Shown in pieces: positions 893 through 12,992 of a stretch of DNA of 64,000 bases. The notes beneath the pieces are model-generated. The model was not told the origin of the DNA and made no database searches. It saw only the letters and a program-made list of their open reading frames with translations. How positions within the stretch are numbered: position 1 is the first letter of the stretch; every line of letters starts with the position of its first letter. Source of the DNA: Streptomyces violaceusniger Tu 4113. GTDB taxonomy: Bacteria; Actinomycetota; Actinomycetes; Streptomycetales; Streptomycetaceae. The stretch is taken from assembly GCF_000147815.2 (NCBI RefSeq), contig NC_015957.1:2418001-2482000 (forward strand), given 5' to 3'. Both the position numbers and the translations under genes were made by a program.

Positions 893-2743
893 ATGCGCAC
901 GTCCAGACGACGGGCCGTCATCCCTCTCCGAGCGCTCAGCCTTCTGCTCGGCATGGTGCTGGCGACGATCCTCAGCGGCCCTTCCGCCGCCACCGCGGCG
1001 CCGGCGGCGCCGACGGCAGCGCGGGAGCCCGGACCCGGCACCGACTACGCGACCGACGATCCGTTCACCTCCGACCGCACCGGCTGGTGGCGGCAGGACC
1101 GCTTCGGAATGTTCATCCACTTCGGCGCCTACTCCCAGCTCGAGGGCCAATACCAGCGGGCGGACGGAACCGTCTGCCGCGACGCCGAGTGGATCAAGCG
1201 AAACTGCCAGATCCCGATGAGCGAGTACGAGGACGCCGCGCAGGACTTCAACCCCGCGTCCTTCGACGCCAAGGCCGTCGTGAAGGCGGCCAAGGACGCC
1301 GGGCAGCGCTATATCGTCATCACCTCCAAGCACCACGACGGATACGCGATGTGGCCGACCAAGCAGAACACCTGGAATCTGCGCGACCACTCCTCCTTCG
1401 ATCAACGGCGCGACATTCTGGCCGAGTTGAAGTCCGCCGCGGACGCCGCCGGGATCAAACTCGGCTTCTACTACTCGATCTGGGACTGGCACGACCCCGA
1501 CTTCGCCGACCCCGCCACTTTCCCCCGCTATGAGAAGCGGATGTACGCCCAGCTCAAGGAGCTGGTCGACAGCTACCATCCGGCGCTGCTCTGGTTCGAC
1601 GGGGAATGGGACGCGGACAACCCCACCAACACCTGGTCGGCGCAGGACGGCGAGCGGCTGCAGACGTATCTGCACGGGCTCGACCCCGATCTGATCACCA
1701 ACAACCGGGTCGGCAAACGCCGCGTGGTCGACGGCGACTACGGAACGCCCGAGCAGGAAATCCCGGACGCGCCCGTCGCCGGGCAGTTGTGGGAGAGCTG
1801 CATGACCCTCAACGGCCACTGGGGATTCGCCACATACGACCAGGACTGGAAGTCGCCCGCCACCCTCACCCGCAATCTCCTCGATATCGCGAGCCGCGGC
1901 GGCAATTACCTCCTCAATGTCGGCCCCGACAAACTGGGCCGCGTTCCCCAGCCCTCCGTCGACCGGCTGCGCGAGATCGGCTCCTGGCTGCGGACCTCCG
2001 GCCAGGGCCGCGCGGTGTACGGGGCCGGGGCCACCGGGCTGGTCGACGAGCCGTCCTGGGGCGCGGTGAGCCGGTCGGGCGACCGGCTGTACGCGTCCGT
2101 CACCTCCTGGCCCGCCGCGGGGCAGCCCCTCCACCTCACCGCCAGGGCGCCGTTCACGGTGACCGGCGCCCGGGTGCTGGGCAGCGGACAGCGGGTCGAG
2201 GTGGCCAAGGCGGGCGACGGTTTCGATCTCACCCCCTCCGGCGGACCGGCCGACCCCACCGCCTCGGTGATCGAGCTGACGGTGAAACCGGCCCCGGCCG
2301 CGCCCCAGGGCCGGGGCGAGGGGCTGCGGGAGGAGGTCTTCGCCAATGAGACCTTCACCGGGCCGCCGGCCGTCACCCGGACCGACCCGGCCGTCAACCA
2401 CATCTGGAGGTTTGCCGGCTCCCCGGCCGCCGATGTGCCCGCCGACCACTTCGGCGTCCGCTGGACCGGCTTCCTCCAGCCCCGCCACAGCGAGACGTAC
2501 ACGCTCACGACCGTTTCCGACGACACCGCGCGGGTGTGGATCGACGGCCGTCTGGTCATCGACAACACCACCCCGCATGAACCACAGGTCGACAAGGCGA
2601 CCGTCGCGCTGCGCGCCGGAGCCAAGCACGCCATCAAGATCGAGTACACCGAGCAGACCGGTGAGGCCCATATGAAGTTGCTGTGGTCCAGCCCCAGCGT
2701 GCCCCAGCAGATCGTGCCGCGCTCCCAGCTCTACACGTCGTAG
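893..2743 (+). CDS. Secreted alpha-L-fucosidase (GH29) with C-terminal PA14 domain
   Basis: 616 residues from ATG 893, chosen over ATG 875 because AGGAG (883-887) lies six bases upstream. A basic n-region and a hydrophobic stretch ending at an Ala-rich cleavage area (residues 1 to about 36) form a signal peptide. The GH29 catalytic domain follows: GMFIHFGAYS near residue 70, TSKHHDGYAMW, and LLWFDGEWD, whose Asp (residue 236, bases 1598-1600) is the expected nucleophile. A PA14 domain (about 480-612; WTGFLQPRHSETYT, VWIDGRLVID) probably binds carbohydrate. The enzyme should release terminal L-fucose outside the cell. No transporter or fucose catabolic gene adjoins it. Confidence 0.9.
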   Translation: MRTSRRRAVIPLRALSLLLGMVLATILSGPSAATAAPAAPTAAREPGPGTDYATDDPFTSDRTGWWRQDRFGMFIHFGAYSQLEGQYQRADGTVCRDAEWIKRNCQIPMSEYEDAAQDFNPASFDAKAVVKAAKDAGQRYIVITSKHHDGYAMWPTKQNTWNLRDHSSFDQRRDILAELKSAADAAGIKLGFYYSIWDWHDPDFADPATFPRYEKRMYAQLKELVDSYHPALLWFDGEWDADNPTNTWSAQDGERLQTYLHGLDPDLITNNRVGKRRVVDGDYGTPEQEIPDAPVAGQLWESCMTLNGHWGFATYDQDWKSPATLTRNLLDIASRGGNYLLNVGPDKLGRVPQPSVDRLREIGSWLRTSGQGRAVYGAGATGLVDEPSWGAVSRSGDRLYASVTSWPAAGQPLHLTARAPFTVTGARVLGSGQRVEVAKAGDGFDLTPSGGPADPTASVIELTVKPAPAAPQGRGEGLREEVFANETFTGPPAVTRTDPAVNHIWRFAGSPAADVPADHFGVRWTGFLQPRHSETYTLTTVSDDTARVWIDGRLVIDNTTPHEPQVDKATVALRAGAKHAIKIEYTEQTGEAHMKLLWSSPSVPQQIVPRSQLYTS

Positions 2744-2752
2744 CGGCAGCCG

Positions 2753-2786
2753 GGGCCCCGGACCGTACCCGTACGGTCCGGGGCCC
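2753..2786. terminator. Bidirectional terminator between convergent genes
   Basis: Perfect 16-bp inverted repeat, GGGCCCCGGACCGTAC (2753-2768) and its complement (2771-2786), with a 2-base gap, between the stops of the fucosidase (+) and malate synthase (-) genes. No U-tract, as is common in Streptomyces. Confidence 0.8.
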
Positions 2787-2806
2787 TCGCGGCCGAACGG
2801 ACCGGG

Positions 2807-4426
2807 TCAGCCCAGCAGTTCGTACGCGGGCAGCGTCAGGAACTCCGTGTAGTCCGCGTCCAGCGCGACCCTCAGCAGCAGATCGTGCGCCTGGCTCCAC
2901 CTGCCCGCGGCGAAGGCGTCCTCGCCGACCTCCTCGCGGATCGCCGCCAGCTCCTCGGCGGCGACCTTACGGACAAGATCGGCGGTGGCCTTCTCGCCGT
3001 TCTCGAAGACCACCCCCGCGTTGACCCACTGCCAGATCTGGGAGCGGGAGATCTCGGCGGTGGCCGCGTCCTCCATCAGGTTGAAGATCGCGACGGCGCC
3101 GAGGCCGCGCAGCCAAGCCTCGATATAGCGGGTGCCGACCTGCACGGCGTTGCGCAGGCCGTCATGCGTGGGCCTGGCGTCGAGCGACGCGACGTCGATC
3201 AGTTCGGCCGCGGTGACCCGGACGTCCTCGCGCAGCCGGTCCTTCTGGTGCGGCCGGTCGCCGAGGACCGCGTCGAAGGAGGCGCGGGCGACCGGGACCA
3301 GATCCGGATGGGCGACCCAGGAGCCGTCGAAACCGTCGCCTGCCTCACGGTCCTTGTCGGCCTTGACCTTGTCGAACGCGACCGTGTTGACCTCGGGGTC
3401 GCGGCGCGAGGGGATGAAGGCCGCCATGCCGCCGACCGCGTGCGCGCCGCGCTTGTGGCAGGTGCGGACGAGCAGTTCGGTGTAGGCGCGCATGAACGGG
3501 GCGGTCATCGTGATCGCGTTGCGGTCCGGCAGGACGAAACCGGGGCCGCCGTCGCGGAAGTTCTTGACGATGGAGAAGAGATAGTCCCAGCGGCCCGCGT
3601 TGAGCCCGGAGGCGTGGTCGCGGAGCTCGTAGAGGATCTCGTCCATCTCGTACGCCGCCGTGATCGTCTCGATCAGAACGGTGGCGCGGATCGTCCCTTG
3701 CGGAAGCGAGAGATGGTCCTGTGCGAAGACGAAGACGTCGTTCCAGAGGCGGGCCTCGAGATGCGACTCGGTCTTGGGGAGGTAGAAGTACGGCCCCTTG
3801 CCCTGGGCGAGCAGCCGGCGGGCGTTGTGGAAGAAGTACAGCCCGAAGTCGACGAGAGCGCCGGGGACGGGGCGGCCGTCGGCGGCCCGCAGATGGCGCT
3901 CGTCGAGATGCCAGCCGCGCGGCCGGGTGACGACGGTGGCCAGCACATCGTCGGGCCGCAGCGCGTAGCTCTTGCCCTCGGGGGAGGTGAAGTCGATCCG
4001 GCGCTCATAGGCGTCGATCAGATTGAGCTGGCCGCCGATCACATTCGCCCAGGTGGGGGCGGAGGCGTCCTCGAAGTCGGCGAGCCAGACCTTGGCGCCC
4101 GAGTTGAGGGCGTTGATGGTCATCTTGCGGTCGGTGGGCCCGGTGATCTCCACCCGCCGGTCCTCGAGAGCGGGCGGGGCGGGGGCGACGCGCCAGTCGG
4201 GGTCGTCGCGGATGTGGGCGGTCTCCGGGAGGAAGTCCAGGGTGCTGGTGCGGGCGATCTCGGCGCGGCGCTCCGCGCGGCGCGCGAGCAGCTCGTCCCG
4301 GCGCGGGGTGAAGCGGTGGTGGAGCTCGGCCAGGAAGGTCAGGGCCGCGTCGGTCAGCACCTCCCCCTGACGCTCCAGCGGTTCGGCGTCGACGATGGCC
4401 AGCGGGGAAGGCGCTGGTGCGGACAT
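2807..4426 (-). CDS. aceB: Malate synthase A
   Basis: 539 residues, the usual length for malate synthase A. It condenses glyoxylate with acetyl-CoA to malate. The family signature [14 protein letters not shown] is intact, as are [21 protein letters not shown] near residue 100 and [27 protein letters not shown] precedes the ATG. No isocitrate lyase gene is nearby. Instead the gene lies beside allantoinase, allantoicase and an IclR regulator, so its job here is probably to consume glyoxylate released from ureidoglycolate rather than to serve the glyoxylate shunt. It has its own promoter with a candidate operator in the spacer. Confidence 0.95.
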
Positions 4427-7097: not shown

Positions 7098-8459
7098 GTG
7101 CCCGACGTGGAGCTGGTGCTGCGCTCGGCCAGGGTGGTCACACCGGACGGCCCGCGTGCGGCTTCCGTGTCCGTCGCCGACGGCCGCATCGTGGCCGTCG
7201 GGCCGTACGACACCCCGGACCCGGACGGCGCGAGGGTCGAGGACCTCGGCGACGAGGTCCTGCTCCCCGGCCTCGTCGACACCCACGTCCATGTCAACGA
7301 CCCCGGCCGCACCGCCTGGGAGGGGTTCGGCTCGGCCACCCGCGCCGCCGCGGCCGGCGGCGTCACCACCCTCGTCGACATGCCGCTCAACAGCGTCCCG
7401 CCGACCACCACCGTCCCGGCCCTGGAGGTCAAACGGGCCGTCGCCCGGCGGTCGGCCCATGTCGACATCGGGTTCTGGGGCGGCGCCGTGCCCGGGAACG
7501 CCCCCGAGCTGCGGCCGCTGCACGACGCGGGCGTCCTCGGCTTCAAGGCGTTTCTGCTCCCCTCCGGTGTGGACGAGTTTCCGCCGCTCGCCCCCGGCCA
7601 GCTCCGGACCGCCCTCCGCGAGATCGCGGGCTTCGGCGGACTGCTGATCGTCCACGCCGAGGATGCCCGCCTCATCGACGGCGCCCCACCGCCCACCGGC
7701 CCCCGCTACGCCGACTTCCTGGCCTCCCGCCCGCGCGCCGCCGAGAACGAGGCCATCGCGGGCCTCATCGCTCTCGCCCACGAGCTGGACGCCCGCGTCC
7801 ACGTCCTGCACCTCTCGTCCGCCGACGCGCTGCCGCTGATCGCCGACGCCCGCCGTAAGGGCGTCCGGATCACCGTGGAGACCTGCCCGCACTTCCTGAC
7901 CCTCACCGCCGAGGAAGTCCCCGACGGCGCCACGGAGTTCAAATGCTGTCCGCCCATAAGGGAGGCCGCCAACCAGGACGCGCTGTGGGCGGGCCTGGCG
8001 GCCGGGGAGATCGACTGCGTCGTCTCCGACCACTCGCCCTGTACGGCCGACCTCAAGGTGGACGACTTCGGGCGGGCCTGGGGCGGCATCTCCTCGCTCC
8101 AGCTCGGCCTCCCCGCCGTCTGGACGGCGGCCCGGCGGCGCGGCCACACCCTCCACGACGTGGCCCGCTGGATGTCCACCGGCCCCGCCGCGCTCGTCGG
8201 TCTCGACCGTAAGGGCGCCATCGAGGCCGGCCGCGACGCCGACTTCGCGGTCCTCGCCCCCGACGAGACCTTCACCGTCGACCCCGCCGCCCTCCACCAC
8301 CGCAACCAGGTCACCGCCTACGCGGGCAGAACACTCTTCGGCGTCGTACGGTCCACCTGGCTGCGCGGCCGGAAGATCGCCGACCATGGCGCGATCGCCG
8401 ACCGTGGCGCGACGAGCGAACCCACCGGCCGACTCCTGGAAAGGCAGCCCCGCACATGA
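7098..8459 (+). CDS. allB: Allantoinase
   Basis: 453 residues from GTG 7098, which has AGGAGGG (7086-7092) in front; GTG 7077 has none. It is a cyclic amidohydrolase that opens allantoin to allantoate. Visible metal-site elements: DTHVHVND (HxH), [11 protein letters not shown] (the Lys that is carbamylated in this family), [17 protein letters not shown] and VVSDHSPCT (Asp). [10 protein letters not shown] is characteristic of allantoinases. It overlaps the allantoicase gene by ATGA, so the two are translationally coupled, and both are probably controlled by the IclR protein encoded divergently. Confidence 0.93.
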
Positions 8460-9601
8460 CCGCGCCGATCCCCCGCTTCACCGGCGACGCCGCCCCGTAC
8501 GGCGGTGGCGATCCGTACGCCGACTACCGGACCGCCGACCTCCCCTTCACCCACCTCGTGGACCTGGCCGACCGGCGGCTCGGCGGAAGCGTGGTCGCGG
8601 CCAACGACGAGTTCTTCGCCGACCGCGAGAATCTGCTGAAGCCCGAACCCCCGCACTTCGACCCCGCCGCCTTCGGCCACAAGGGCAAGGTCATGGACGG
8701 CTGGGAGACCCGGCGGCGGCGCGGAGCCTCCGCCGACACCCCGCATCCGGCCGAGGACGACCACGACTGGGCCCTGATCCGCCTCGGCGCGCCCGGGATC
8801 GTCCACGGCATCGTCGTCGACACCGCCCACTTCCGCGGCAACTACCCGCGGGCGGTGAGCGTCGAGGCGACGGCGGTGGAGGGCACCCCGTCCCCCGAGG
8901 AACTCCTCGCCGACGACGTCGTATGGACGGAACTCGTCCCCCATACGCGGATCGGCGGCCACGCGGCCAACGGCTTCCCGGTCTCCGTGGGCCGCCGCTT
9001 CACCCACCTCCGCCTGGGGCAGCACCCCGACGGCGGCATCGCCCGCCTCCGCGTCCACGGCGAGGTCGCCCCCGACCCGGCGTGGCTCACCGCCCTCGGC
9101 ACCTTCGACGTGGTGGCGCTGGAACACGGCGGCGCGGCCGAGGACGCCTCCGACCGCTTCTACTCCCCGCCCGCCAACTCCATCCAGCCCGGCCGCTCCC
9201 ACAAGATGGACGAGGGCTGGGAGACTCGCCGCCGCCGCGACACGGGCCACGACTGGGTCCGCTACCGCCTCACCGCCCAGGCGTCGCTGCGCGCCGTGGA
9301 GATCGACACCGGCTGCTACAAGGGCAACGCACCGGGCTGGGCGGCGCTGTACGGCCTCGACGCCACCTCCGGCGCGGACCCGGCCGACCACACCTCCCCG
9401 TCCTGGACCGAACTCCTGCCCCGCACCCGCCTCCAGCCCGATACGGTCCACCGCTTCGTCCTCGACGCGGCCCCGCCGGTGACCCACGTCCGCATCGACA
9501 TCTACCCGGACGGCGGCGTCGCCCGGCTGCGGCTGCTCGGGACGCCGACCGAACACGGCGCGCAGCGGCTCGCCTCCCGCCATACGGAGCTGAGCGGCTA
9601 G
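8456..9601 (+). CDS. alc: Allantoicase
   Basis: 381 residues. It hydrolyses allantoate to ureidoglycolate and urea. The two-repeat structure of the family is plain: [15 protein letters not shown] near residue 80 and [15 protein letters not shown] near 248, each followed by HDW and a FRGNYPRA / YKGNAPGW segment. Ureidoglycolate breakdown gives glyoxylate, which malate synthase (2807-4426) can use. The TAG stop at 9599-9601 is part of the CTAG target duplication of the insertion element that begins at 9602; the reading frame is undamaged. Confidence 0.93.
9598..9601. repeat. Target-site duplication CTAG, left copy
   Basis: CTAG directly before the left terminal repeat, identical to 12195-12198. 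It contains the allantoicase stop codon. Confidence 0.85.
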
Positions 9602-9619
9602 AGCCTGTCTCGTCGATCA
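9602..9619 (+). repeat. Left terminal inverted repeat of the IS
   Basis: AGCCTGTCTCGTCGATCA, an exact 18-bp complement of 12177-12194. The transposase stop codon (9617-9619) lies inside it. Confidence 0.88.
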
Positions 9620-10548
9620 CGAGCGGAGCCAGATCAGGAGGGCGGCGGCCGTGACAGTGCCGAGGTAGACGTATCGGCGCTTGTCATAGCGGGTGGCGAC
9701 GGCTCGGAACTGCTTGATCTTGTTGATCGCTCGTTCGACCGTGTTCCTGGCTTTGTACCGGGTCTTGTCGAAGCCCGGTGGTCGGCCGCCGTCCGAACCT
9801 CTGCGCCGGCGGGCGGTTCTGGAGTCGCTCTTCTCCGGGATCACGTGTCGGATGCCGCGTCGTCGTAGGTAAGAGCGGATCAGGCTGTTGCTGTATGCCT
9901 TATCGGCGCCGACACTGTCCGGCAGTCGCCGCGGTCGGCCCGCGCCGAGCCGGGGAACGCGGATCTTGTCCATGACGGCCTCGAATTGTGTGCAGTCCGC
10001 TCGTTGCCCGGGCGTGAGGACCAGGGAGAGCGGACGGCATCGGCCGTCTGCGCTCAGGTGGATCTTCGTGGTCAGCCCACCGCGGGAACGACCGAGAGCT
10101 TCGTCGGCGGCGCCGCCTCCGCCAGGCACAGGCGTATGTGCACGCGCATGTGAACTGATCTTTGTGGGGCCCCCTTTGAGGTGCCAGGAGGTGCTGGTGG
10201 CGGATCTGTCGGGGCGCCGGCGGCGTGCTGATGGGCTCGAATGGAGGTGGAGTCGACGTTGATGTTCCAGTCGATCTCCCCCACTGTGTCGGCGACGGCC
10301 TGGACGTGCTGGAGCAGTCGTTCCCAGGTTCCGTCGGCCGACCAGAGCATGTGGCGTTTGTGAATGGTCTGCCACGGGCCGAAGCGAGCGGGCAGCTGAC
10401 GCCACTGACAGCCGGTGCTCAGGCGGTGGATGATTCCGTTGATCACCTGTCGGTGGTCCCGCCACCGGCCGCAGCGGTTGTCGCTCCTGGGCAGCAAAGG
10501 CTCCAGCACTGCCCACTCCTCATCGGTGAGATCCCCCCTGTTGAGCAC
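9617..10548 (-). CDS. IS5-family (IS427-like) transposase made by -1 frameshifting
   Basis: Two overlapping frames form one transposase. The first (GTG 10548 to 10072) begins LTDEEWAVLEPLLP and carries the first catalytic Asp in NVDSTSIRAHQHAAG. The second, ending at 9617, carries ALGRSRGGLTTKIHLSADG, the second Asp in VGADKAYSN and the Glu in ARNTVERAINKIKQF. The frames join at the slippery heptamer A AAG GGG (minus strand 10177-10171), where a -1 shift gives a continuous DDE protein of about 310 residues. Family members commonly use this mechanism, so the element may be active. A disabling mutation is the alternative reading of the frame change. Confidence 0.85.
10171..10177 (-). promoter_or_regulatory. 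Probable programmed -1 frameshift site
   Basis: AAAGGGG read A AAG GGG in the first transposase frame, fitting X XXY YYZ. The second frame becomes correct exactly here. A GC-rich stretch follows. Confidence 0.6.
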
Positions 10549-10564
10549 GCCCCTGGCCTCTCTT

Positions 10565-11422
10565 TCACGCGGCGTTCGCGTCCGCGAGTTGGTCGGTGAC
10601 AGTGCGGGGTTCCCGGCCCAGCAGCTCGGCGAGCAGCGGATCGACTCCCGCGAAGCGGCCTTGCCGGGCGGCCTGGAAGGTGGTGAGCGTCATCCGCGCC
10701 ATCGCCTCCGGAGTACCCGCGGCGACCTTGTCTGCGATCCAAGCCTCGTCGTCCATCGTGACGCGATTGATCTCACGGCCGGCGGTCTTCGAGGCCATGG
10801 CGGCGACGTCGTCGAACGTCACGGCCTGACGGGCGGTGAGCGTGACCGGGCCGTCGAAGGCCCGGTCACCGGCCAGGATGACCGCTGCCGCTTCGGCGAC
10901 ATCTGCCCGGTCGGTCCAGGAGACCGGTCCGTCGGCCGGGGCCGTGATCGTGCCGGTCTGCTGCCACGGGCCCAGCAGCCAGGCAAGGCTGTGGGCGTAG
11001 AAGCCGTTGCGCAGCGCCGTCCACGCAACACCCGAGTCGGCCAGAAGCTGCTCGGTGGCGGCGTGGTCGCGCGCCGGGTGGAAAGGACTGTCGGCGCTGG
11101 CGCCCTGGTGGCTGGTGTAAAGGATGCGCTGGGCTCCGGCTGCGACGGCGGCCTTGATGCCGACGCGGTGCAGCGCGACCGCATCGGCATGCGGATCGTT
11201 GGAGGAGACGAGCAGAACCTGCTCAGCGCCCTCGAAGGAGTGCCGCAGCGCCGCCGGGTCCTCGTAGGAACCCTGGCGTACCCGCACGCCGCGGTCGGCG
11301 AAGTGCTGCGCCTTGGCGACATCGCGGACGCTGACGCCGATCTGCTCCGCGGGCACGCGCTTGAGAAGGTGCTCGACGGTGGCGCCGTTCAGCGCGCCCG
11401 TCGCTCCGGTGACGACGATCAT
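10565..11422 (-). CDS. NmrA-like NAD(P)-binding oxidoreductase, IS passenger
   Basis: 285 residues from ATG 11422 with GAAAGGA upstream. The N-terminal Rossmann motif is VVTGATGALNGATVEHLL. Further features are the VLLVSSND strand, YTSHQGA and ALRNGFYAHSLAWLLGPW, as in NmrA/QOR2-type quinone oxidoreductase-like or redox-sensing proteins. No Y-x3-K active site of classical short-chain dehydrogenases is seen. It follows the TetR gene by 51 bp on the same strand, suggesting that TetR controls it. It is carried inside the insertion element; substrate unknown. Its stop is 16 bp from the transposase start. Confidence 0.8.
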   Translation of the reverse strand: MIVVTGATGALNGATVEHLLKRVPAEQIGVSVRDVAKAQHFADRGVRVRQGSYEDPAALRHSFEGAEQVLLVSSNDPHADAVALHRVGIKAAVAAGAQRILYTSHQGASADSPFHPARDHAATEQLLADSGVAWTALRNGFYAHSLAWLLGPWQQTGTITAPADGPVSWTDRADVAEAAAVILAGDRAFDGPVTLTARQAVTFDDVAAMASKTAGREINRVTMDDEAWIADKVAAGTPEAMARMTLTTFQAARQGRFAGVDPLLAELLGREPRTVTDQLADANAA

Positions 11423-11473
11423 GGAGGTGTTCCTTTCGTTCCCGCAGTGCGCCGGGCGCATGCGGGGCTGGTG

Positions 11474-12043
11474 TCAGTGACCGCGCAGGAGCGGCAGAAG
11501 GATGTCGTCCACGAGGTGCTCGATGAACGGTTCATCGCACGGCTCACCCGCGATCACGATGCGGTGGACGATCACGGCCGGTGCCACCTCGGCGAAGAGC
11601 TCGGCAGCCCGGGGAGACAGCTGTTCGCCGTGCCGGATCGCCTTGCGCAGCGGCTCGTCGGTCATCGCCGCCTCATCCCGACGCAGAATGCGACGCATCT
11701 CCTCCGCGAGCCGCGCGTCACTGCGCATCCCGGCGAACAGCGCCCCCAGCAGGCCGATCTCCTGCTCGGCGATCTGCCGAGCCAGCCAGCTGACGAGCCC
11801 GAGGAGATCTCCTCGAAGATCACCCGCCACAGGCCCGGGAGGCGTGGCCTGCGAGCGGTGCTCGACGGCCGCCGCGACCAGCGCGGCCTTGTCGCGATAG
11901 CGACGGTAGATCGTCGTCTTCGCCGCCCCGGAACGACTCGCGACCGCCTCCATGGACAGCTGCTCGTAGCCCACCTCGGTCAGCAGCGACAGCGTCGCGT
12001 CAAGAATGGTCAGGTCACGGCTAGTGTCGCGCGGCCGACCCAT
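11474..12043 (-). CDS. TetR-family regulator, IS passenger
   Basis: 189 residues from ATG 12043 (MGRPRDTSRDLTIL). The N-terminal DNA-binding domain holds ILDATLSLLTEVGYEQLSMEAVA and SGAAKTTIYRRYRDKAALV, the typical TetR helix-turn-helix at residues 10-55. The C-terminal part is a variable ligand domain ending LLPLLRGH. A perfect 14-bp inverted repeat sits 63 bp upstream and is the probable autoregulatory operator. The protein likely represses itself and the NmrA-like gene downstream. The open frame continues further upstream, but the TetR fold begins here. Confidence 0.85.
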   Translation of the reverse strand: MGRPRDTSRDLTILDATLSLLTEVGYEQLSMEAVASRSGAAKTTIYRRYRDKAALVAAAVEHRSQATPPGPVAGDLRGDLLGLVSWLARQIAEQEIGLLGALFAGMRSDARLAEEMRRILRRDEAAMTDEPLRKAIRHGEQLSPRAAELFAEVAPAVIVHRIVIAGEPCDEPFIEHLVDDILLPLLRGH

Positions 12044-12105
12044 GACGGGTGGCCGCGCTGTGCCGCCATTTCGTGAGCCACTCGATGCGCGTGCCACGCC
12101 TACTC

Positions 12106-12142
12106 CTACTTTCGATACGCTACGGTTTCGTATCGAAAGTAG
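12106..12142. promoter_or_regulatory. TetR operator candidate, perfect 14-bp inverted repeat
   Basis: CTACTTTCGATACG (12106-12119), a 9-base centre, and the exact complement (12129-12142). It lies between the TetR start and the right end of the IS, the only regulatory-looking sequence there. Confidence 0.7.
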
Positions 12143-12176
12143 CTCGGAATACGGTCTCCGGCAACTCGGGCTCGCT

Positions 12177-12194
12177 TGATCGACGAGACAGGCT
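12177..12194 (-). repeat. Right terminal inverted repeat of the IS
   Basis: TGATCGACGAGACAGGCT, the exact complement of 9602-9619. Confidence 0.88.
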
Positions 12195-12198
12195 CTAG
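12195..12198. repeat. Target-site duplication CTAG, right copy
   Basis: CTAG directly after the right terminal repeat. Bases 12195-12197 supply the stop codon of the MerR gene on the minus strand. Confidence 0.85.
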
Positions 12199-12992
12199 CT
12201 CCCTGCCCGACGGGCCTCCCGCACCCGCTCCACATAACCGACCAACTCGGCCATCCGCTCGCCGGGCCAGGGCAGTCGGCCGCTGAGCTCTTCGCGGTGG
12301 TCCTGCCACATGCGCCGGGCCGCCGCCTTGGTCTCCGCCCGGGCCCGCTCACCGCCGCCGTGGAAGGACTCGCCCACCGCGTCCCAGCGCCGCACAAGCT
12401 CCCGTACGTCCGCGTCATCCACCGGAGTCCCGGCCTCCATATGCTCCAGCAACGCCTCCACGAGCCCGGCCCACTCGCTCTTGGCCGCCTCGACCGCCTC
12501 GGGCCCAAGCGTGCTCCTGCGCCGGGCGAGCTCATCGCGTTGTTCCTGGGTGAAATAGCCGTCCAGCATCGACATCATCTCCAAGGCCGTCATGAACTGG
12601 TCCGGATCGGGTATCGACGCCCCGTCGAGCTGCCGCAGCATCCCGCGAATCCGCTCGCTGAGCTGCTGAATCCGCTCGGCCTGCGCGGTGAGCCGGTCCA
12701 ACTGCCCGGCGAGCGACGCACGCAGCGCCTCAGGACCGTCCGCGGAGGCCGCGAGCGCGTCGCCGATCTCCTCCAGGGACAGCCCCAACCCGCGCAACGC
12801 CCGCACCCGGTACAGGCGCCGCAGATCCTCCGCCGCATACCGACGGTGCCCGGCCCCGGTCCGCCCACTCGCCCGGACCAGCCCCACCTCGTCGTAATGC
12901 CGCAGCGCCCGCACGGTCACTCCACTCGCCCGCGCCAGCTCACCGATGCTCCACCGATCTCCGGTGGCGTCCTTTCCGATCACGCCGCCCAC
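12195..12992 (-). CDS. MerR-family regulator with TipAS-like domain
   Basis: 265 residues. The MerR DNA-binding domain occupies about 14-85 (WSIGELARASGVTVRALRHYDEVGLV, GHRRYAAEDLRRLYRVRALRGLGLSLEEIGDAL). A long helix follows (LDRLTAQAERIQQLSERIRGML), then an all-helical C-terminal domain of the TipAS type, which binds thiopeptide-like drugs in TipA. It should act as a drug- or stress-sensing transcription activator. No obvious target gene adjoins it. Its last codon and stop border the IS target duplication and are intact. GTG 12992 or the GTG three codons later could be the start. Confidence 0.85.
   Translation of the reverse strand: MGGVIGKDATGDRWSIGELARASGVTVRALRHYDEVGLVRASGRTGAGHRRYAAEDLRRLYRVRALRGLGLSLEEIGDALAASADGPEALRASLAGQLDRLTAQAERIQQLSERIRGMLRQLDGASIPDPDQFMTALEMMSMLDGYFTQEQRDELARRRSTLGPEAVEAAKSEWAGLVEALLEHMEAGTPVDDADVRELVRRWDAVGESFHGGGERARAETKAAARRMWQDHREELSGRLPWPGERMAELVGYVERVREARRAGS

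Follow-up and report, generated by a model that had tools for sequence, protein, structure and literature searches.

Does the insertion sequence (IS) found at this locus of Streptomyces violaceusniger Tu 4113 carry two unrelated genes with it, or did it settle beside a pair that was already resident? The 11.1-Mb genome hosts a 2.6-kb element at positions 9602-12194 of the 64,000-nucleotide stretch analysed here (the window), in which a transposase of the IS5 family adjoins a tetR and an nmrA gene. We consider the element very probably to be a passenger-bearing IS of the IS5 family, a type known as transporter IS (tIS), which moves transposase, nmrA and tetR as one unit; this reading includes the roles proposed below for TetR and NmrA and for passenger gain within the lineage.

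Structure of the element

The left terminal inverted repeat, AGCCTGTCTCGTCGATCA (9602-9619, + strand), has a length of 18 bp, or 19 bp if the G at 9601 is counted, and its innermost three bases double as the stop codon of the transposase. The right repeat (12177-12194, - strand) is its exact complement. Perfect 18-bp ends 2.6 kb apart had been claimed in an earlier note on this DNA and are confirmed. A repeat-finding tool lengthens them to 23 nt (9597-9619 and 12177-12199) because the flanking CTAG is itself palindromic. Among the eight CTAG sites in the window, those at the element ends delimit the sole CTAG-flanked 18-bp inverted pair (at least 12 matches, within 8 kb). The end pattern TAGNNNNTGTCNNNNCGATC matched 19 times in the whole genome and 18 of these matches combined into nine element-like pairs, the window element included, whereas the reversed control pattern gave no match. 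The terminal pair of the window is therefore far beyond chance expectation, and it is real.

Between these ends tetR, nmrA and the transposase are all located on the - strand and follow each other in this order of transcription; the transposase and the TetR/NmrA pair on one strand had been described in the earlier note. Its further statement that the terminal repeat has no internal copy also stands: a scan of the window stretch returned the two outer ends only, and at the inner junction beside orfA a relic of an end was undetectable (p 0.62 vs controls). Genes unrelated to transposition are thus enclosed by IS ends, as in a tIS. A composite transposon would consist of two IS copies around the genes; here a single transposase is present and a second copy is absent beside it.

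The tetR-nmrA cassette in other genomes

With just the cassette as query, a search of 295 Streptomyces genomes at the nucleotide level gave matches of at least 1,550 bp with 79-88% identity in five genomes besides that of the window. When one genome per species was scanned with a protein pattern, 30 loci emerged, with both genes in nine and a DNA match in the tetR part only in ten; eleven weaker loci were left out of the analysis. The nine loci with both genes, L026 (genome G011) and the window constitute the eleven cassette loci considered here.

Five of the eleven cassettes are linked to an IS, three of them to only part of a transposase. The decisive case is S. beijiangensis (L053, the same as L064; genome G275), which contains a complete element of 2564 bp with the ends GGCCTGTCTCC[T/C]CGATCA, the same gene order, CTAG on both sides and unrelated flanks. 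In S. spinosisporus a right end with a CCAG flank lies beyond the cassette at another unrelated site, where the transposase is partial; in S. griseorubiginosus and Streptantibioticus ferralitis the cassette is likewise accompanied by part of a transposase. The junction between nmrA and orfA is alike in the window, L059, L061 and L064, four of the five IS-linked cassettes. The whole unit with the same ends thus occurs at a second site, as expected of a tIS, which supports the idea of the earlier note that the IS moves the gene pair as a unit; the genome search that it had proposed for further insertions with these ends, CTAG and this cargo delivered one complete and three partial cases. Between the flanks of the eleven loci, similarity is confined to a few matches that are short or weak (1.5 kb per side compared for L026), and the cassette therefore resides at a different place in every genome examined. 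Beyond one IS-free cassette (L065/L054) a weak end-like remnant was observed, with 14 of 18 bases and no TA. IS-free actinobacterial pairs resemble that of the window in both genes, in gene order and in the operator/promoter region, but differ from it in that no transposase was found alongside and in flanks that vary by genome. Phage records gave no match at E 1e-5, and none of 277 matching plasmid records spanned 80% of the unit.

The insertion site was examined in 30 allantoicase loci of relatives, including the window's own. In the other 29, tetR, nmrA and transposase were absent within 1.5 kb, as was the MerR-family gene that neighbours the element in the window. On the MerR side, no match was obtained at E 1e-60 in 245 other Streptomyces genomes. 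A tetR-nmrA pair at the allantoicase locus without the IS, which by the earlier note would have spoken against joint movement, was hence not seen in the 29 relatives.

A lineage rich in passengers

The transposase DNA was searched against 392, 394 and 296 genomes (overlapping samples), and the two best candidates per genome were scored. Forty regions were taken from the hits; with the window, L053, two plasmid loci and two copies from the own genome, 46 loci were examined. The sample consists of best hits and is not a random draw of IS5 elements; a few transposase hits, for instance second copies in G153 and G540, lie outside the survey. Both ends were located in 38 of the 46 loci, the window counted. 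The loci not given two ends are L122 (7.3 kb between ends), L166, the sequence of which was truncated, L009, which is identical kin of L002, and L126, L128, L153, L157 and L172, in which one or both ends were not found or lay off the contig.

In 25 of these 38 elements one-sided extra DNA lies beside the transposase, and such loaded elements exceed the bare ones (11) in this sample. The earlier note had regarded passenger-bearing forms as uncommon, which is not so in this lineage. The window clade, with ends of the type G..CTGTCTC..CGATCA and variants, comprises 15 resolved elements: 13 contain an open reading frame (ORF) other than the transposase, L129 holds nothing but a nested IS-like ORF, and L154 is bare (975 bp). 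The sister clade, with ends of the type GACTTGTCCGG.CGATCA, comprises 23, with one-sided extra DNA in 12 (in L165 without a convincing gene), a bare element of about 1 kb in ten, and L168 as the remaining one. L129, whose only content we take to be an IS110-like ORF, and L168, with extra DNA on both sides and presumably IS3-like ORFs, are outside the 25; L131, the transposase of which is presumably interrupted by an IS110-like ORF, is within them. L135 and L163 were scored as bare although an outer end is also present. At least six changes between bare and loaded are needed on the tree, ambiguous rows being excluded.

The passengers are diverse. Families called above the Pfam cut-off are MFS (2), NUDIX, GNAT (3), Abhydrolase, Peptidase_S66, DUF6283, RidA with a divergent TetR_C_33 protein in one element, and TetR with NmrA in the window, to which the L053 pair is homologous. 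PemK-like (E 0.005) and colicin-immunity-like (E 0.0006) passengers remained below the cut-off, and ORFs of 74, 87, 199 and 159 aa were without family. A YxiG-like passenger is present in five elements from five genomes (L134, L164, L167, L170 and L171; one was scanned and lies above the Pfam cut-off, four have a similar ORF). It is always located on the same side of the IS, and the bare elements L137 and L163 fall among its carriers in the tree, as would result from loss or from repeated gain. With an approximately unbiased (AU) test p of 0.039 for the carriers as a single clade, a single gain without loss seems doubtful. Extra DNA lies upstream in ten elements with five kinds of passenger, where the ORF adjacent to the transposase reads towards it in each; the 15 elements with downstream DNA display both ORF orientations.

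Genome G245 contains two exact 1305-bp copies with the 87-aa passenger at unrelated sites, each surrounded by CTAG; passenger and IS therefore move together. Two exact 1820-bp copies in G370 are weaker evidence of movement, as their surroundings share a repeat. The copy pair of G150 was rejected as evidence since it lies inside a 12-kb duplicated stretch. In L122 (22-7348; genome G307) a transposase of the lineage has a possible left end 6.3 kb away with several metabolic-looking ORFs between; this may be a multi-gene element of the same type.

The genome of S. violaceusniger itself holds eight copies of a related IS, which are 73% identical to the window transposase and mutually identical over the stretch compared. 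Seven are simple (about 1 kb) and one has a nested insert. The pair with 4.26 kb between its ends, considered as a second passenger element, was rejected because it proved to be a simple copy enlarged by a nested insert of about 3.2 kb (L204, about 1051-4298, near G000:C3:5.2 Mb), bounded by the 6-bp repeat AATCGT and including a 163-aa ORF. The insert presumably carries IstA/IstB-like ORFs, and we take it to be an IS21-type element that bears a passenger itself.

Transposase, family affiliation and target site

The transposase extends over 9617-10548 on the - strand in two frames. The first, orfA (10072-10548, GTG start), affiliates with DUF4096 and corresponds to the N-terminal part of NF033580; the second, orfB (9617-10177), contains the DDE_Tnp_1 domain and is presumably reached via a frameshift. 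The run AAAGGGGG in the frame overlap (10170-10177, - strand) is the presumed slippery site of this programmed frameshift, and an (A)AAAGG run occupies the overlap in 37 of 38 related elements. Both frames belong to the IS5 family according to NF033580 (transpos_IS5_3), with 136.8 and 154.2 bits at a cut-off of 110. Two overlapping frames with a frameshift motif, for which a fused product is predicted from the sequence, are also typical of the IS427 group; the name is used here by resemblance to the elements in PMC3281130. The IS427-type elements of the IS5 family described there, for example IS1248 and ISPpa2, mostly generate 2-bp duplications, and share with the window element the overlapping frames with frameshift motif and ends of 13-21 bp. 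In contrast, those in the table part of PMC3281130 measure 832-865 bp, whereas the window element has 2.6 kb and two extra genes.

The element is inserted where the allantoicase gene (8456-9601, + strand) and the MerR-family gene (12195-12992, - strand) converge. Both stop codons are carried by the flanking CTAG (9598-9601 on the allantoicase side, 12195-12198 on the MerR side), so that the insertion altered neither protein. CTAG occurs on both sides in 25 of the 38 elements, or in 26 if the start of L135 is shifted by one base. Seven others retain TAG on the left and CTA on the right while the outermost base is unequal between the sides (TTAG left in L058, L137 and L168; CTAA right in L120, L123, L155 and L002); five elements depart in other ways (L124, L154, L159, L169 and L170). 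The unequal outermost base speaks for a duplication of only 2 bp (TA) within a YTAR target, with an IS that ends in G and C. Of the CTAG duplication in the earlier note, the presence of CTAG on both sides stands; the duplicated part is more likely TA. The flanks of the window element by themselves are compatible with both; its limits are 9601-12195 under the TA model and 9602-12194 otherwise.

How passengers may be gained

A few elements look like intermediates. In L119 a decayed inner right end lies between the transposase and the NUDIX gene, and none of 300 controls was as good; L131 has a near-intact inner end, which is not flanked by CTAG. At the outer end of L124, 96 bp of a second IS copy were detected, 77% identical to the left end of the window element, with an alignment score of 41 vs a shuffle maximum of 22. 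None of the remaining 24 passenger-bearing elements surpassed the shuffle maximum at the outer end, although L161 and L167 lay above the 95% mark. Among 24 junctions scored for inner-end relics, L119 and L164 exceeded all 300 controls, the other four YxiG elements had p 0.12-1.0, the p of 0.017 for L121 is not significant over 24 tests, and the remaining junctions were like chance. Relics noticed by eye in L127 and L130 were not upheld (p 0.27 and 0.54). The intermediates L119, L131 and L124 are compatible with a switch of ends, whereby a second end on the far side of an adjacent gene assumes the role of the inner one and the latter disappears; to judge from these few, passengers are most likely gained in this way. 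In L135 (4578-7578; genome G267) outer ends with CTAG enclose extra ORFs, presumably MerR-like and serine-hydrolase-like, together with the IS, the near inner left end of which has lost one base; it is possibly a fresh capture.

The passenger genes and their regulation

The gene nmrA (10565-11422, - strand) encodes an NAD(P)-binding oxidoreductase; in sequence comparison with the PDB, YtfG and triphenylmethane reductase matched it best. The product of tetR (11474-12043, - strand; the start codon is not exactly certain) comprises TetR_N and TetR_C_11. The ratio of non-synonymous to synonymous substitutions (dN/dS) for tetR and nmrA was 0.11-0.17 between the window and eight Streptomycetaceae copies (L059-L066) and 0.13-0.28 against the more distant L068 and L026; both genes look under selection. 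Where relatives of this TetR occur without nmrA, they adjoin a different gene; in L036, of the same TetR branch, this neighbour is presumably a Zn-type oxidoreductase-like ORF. In view of the PDB matches of NmrA and of the oxidoreductase-like ORF beside this TetR relative, our best guess for the pair is sensing and reducing quinone- or dye-like compounds.

Upstream of tetR lies an operator-like palindrome, CTACTTTCGATACG-N9-CGTATCGAAAGTAG (12106-12142, - strand). In the form TTTCGATACG-N9-CGTA[TG]CGAAA it recurs with 0-2 changes in 19 of 20 tetR upstream regions, L066 being the exception, and in 18 of the 19 palindrome-bearing regions a TTG precedes it by 25-27 nt on the tetR-sense strand. The proposed promoter, TTGCCG-N17-TACTTT (12136-12164, - strand), would overlap the operator: a -35 TTGCCG (12164-12159) and a -10 TACTTT (12141-12136) are separated by 17 bp, with the -10 inside the palindrome. 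The conservation of operator and promoter suggests self-regulation by TetR. The same operator also occurs in nine of ten relatives of this TetR in other actinobacteria (L067 and L069-L077; L077 was outside the promoter check). As orfA begins only 16 bp past the end of nmrA, co-transcription of the transposase with tetR-nmrA is likely, and the transposase would then also come under the control of TetR.

Proposed mechanism and alternative explanations

In the mechanism that we propose, the frameshifted DDE transposase would act on the two outer ends, and transposase, nmrA and tetR would move jointly as a 2.6-kb unit into YTAR sites, as the same ends and order at different sites indicate. The palindrome that covers the tetR promoter is probably the binding site of TetR, which would there repress one common transcript of tetR, nmrA and transposase. 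Judging from their families, TetR probably senses and NmrA probably reduces quinone- or dye-like electrophiles. The lineage in Streptomycetaceae would repeatedly have gained passengers on one side of the transposase, the outer second end taking over and the inner end decaying. A far more tentative extension, which we would not favour at present, regards the lineage as a general gene-capturing device: ends shift outward over a neighbour gene, inner ends decay and single-gene transposons arise, while the promoter of an upstream passenger, here the TetR switch, drives the transposase, so that transposition would answer a chemical signal.

Several observations weigh against movement as a unit in the form outlined above. 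The exact empty site was found neither among the 29 allantoicase loci nor on the MerR side in the 245 genomes, and a second copy of the tetR-nmrA-transposase unit was not found in the own genome. Beside six of the eleven cassettes no transposase was found, which means that the cassette also occurs IS-free, and two of the IS-free loci, L065 and L026, match nmrA over only 221 and 179 of 285 residues; these genes may be broken. IS-linked cassettes are scattered among IS-free ones in the cassette tree (AU p 4.9e-48 for a single IS-linked clade), so the present linkage would have been lost or made more than once. In the transposase tree one branch, weakly supported (60/28), splits the five carriers from the other 42 rows. 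This history is most simply read as a single capture long ago, after which the transposase was lost several times, with repeated capture as the alternative. Lastly, in most passenger-bearing elements an inner-end relic and a remnant of a second copy are indistinguishable from chance.

The IS-free cassettes would suit an IS that inserted beside a resident tetR-nmrA pair, with a second end that is a chance match or a remnant of an unrelated IS and a pair that does not travel with the IS. This is highly improbable: the right end matches the left in all 18 bp and has a TA/CTAG flank, it recurs past the same cassette at unrelated sites (complete in S. beijiangensis, with CCAG in S. spinosisporus), the pair is absent from all 29 allantoicase loci of relatives, and the second complete insertion already contradicts it. 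We likewise judge it improbable, if slightly less so, that two IS copies once flanked the genes, that one decayed to its end, and that today's 2.6-kb unit is what remained late in this process, having moved in the manner of a composite and not of a tIS. The second IS copy at the outer end of L124 and the mixed end types of L129 favour such an origin, but the outer ends of 24 of the 25 scored elements, that of the window included, remained within the shuffle maximum (with the two above the 95% mark named before); a composite origin may describe beginnings rather than the present mode of movement. Rather unlikely, though it deserves more weight than either of these, is that chance trapped the passengers as neutral hitchhikers that confer no benefit, and that TetR exerts no control over the transposase. 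The high variety of passenger kinds and the several short ORFs without family would agree with this, whereas the low dN/dS of tetR and nmrA among the Streptomycetaceae copies, the conserved operator and the retention of the YxiG-like passenger in five elements of five genomes argue for passengers that are maintained. The passenger-bearing IS thus remains the reading that we prefer.

Relation to known transporter ISs and significance

Transporter ISs are defined or mentioned in PMC9330008, PMC7986276, PMC3129680 and PMC11891212. The examples in the accessible parts of these sources are from the families IS1595, IS1380, IS481 and IS6, none from IS5, and regulators occur among the known passengers, as in ISNha5 (PMC11891212). 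Like the window element, a tIS combines IS-like ends and a transposase with passengers unrelated to transposition, regulators among them (PMC11891212); unlike the examples named there, the window lineage belongs to IS5 and carries passengers frequently. Passenger-bearing IS5-family elements in Streptomyces were not recognisable in the literature searched, which lacked coverage of most subscription papers and of ISfinder. New is therefore a tIS in the IS5 family, and a lineage in which loaded elements outnumber bare ones; the tIS as a kind is already known.

The end pattern, simple as it is, retrieves bare and loaded members of this lineage alike and gives little noise (18 of 19 matches paired, none in the control). 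An annotation that names transposase and neighbour gene separately overlooks such units. Through the intermediates, the path from an IS to a transposon becomes open to direct tests. For Streptomyces, the findings suggest that very small mobile elements may turn genes for transport, acetyltransferases, hydrolases and regulators into jumping genes without plasmid, integron or composite transposon.

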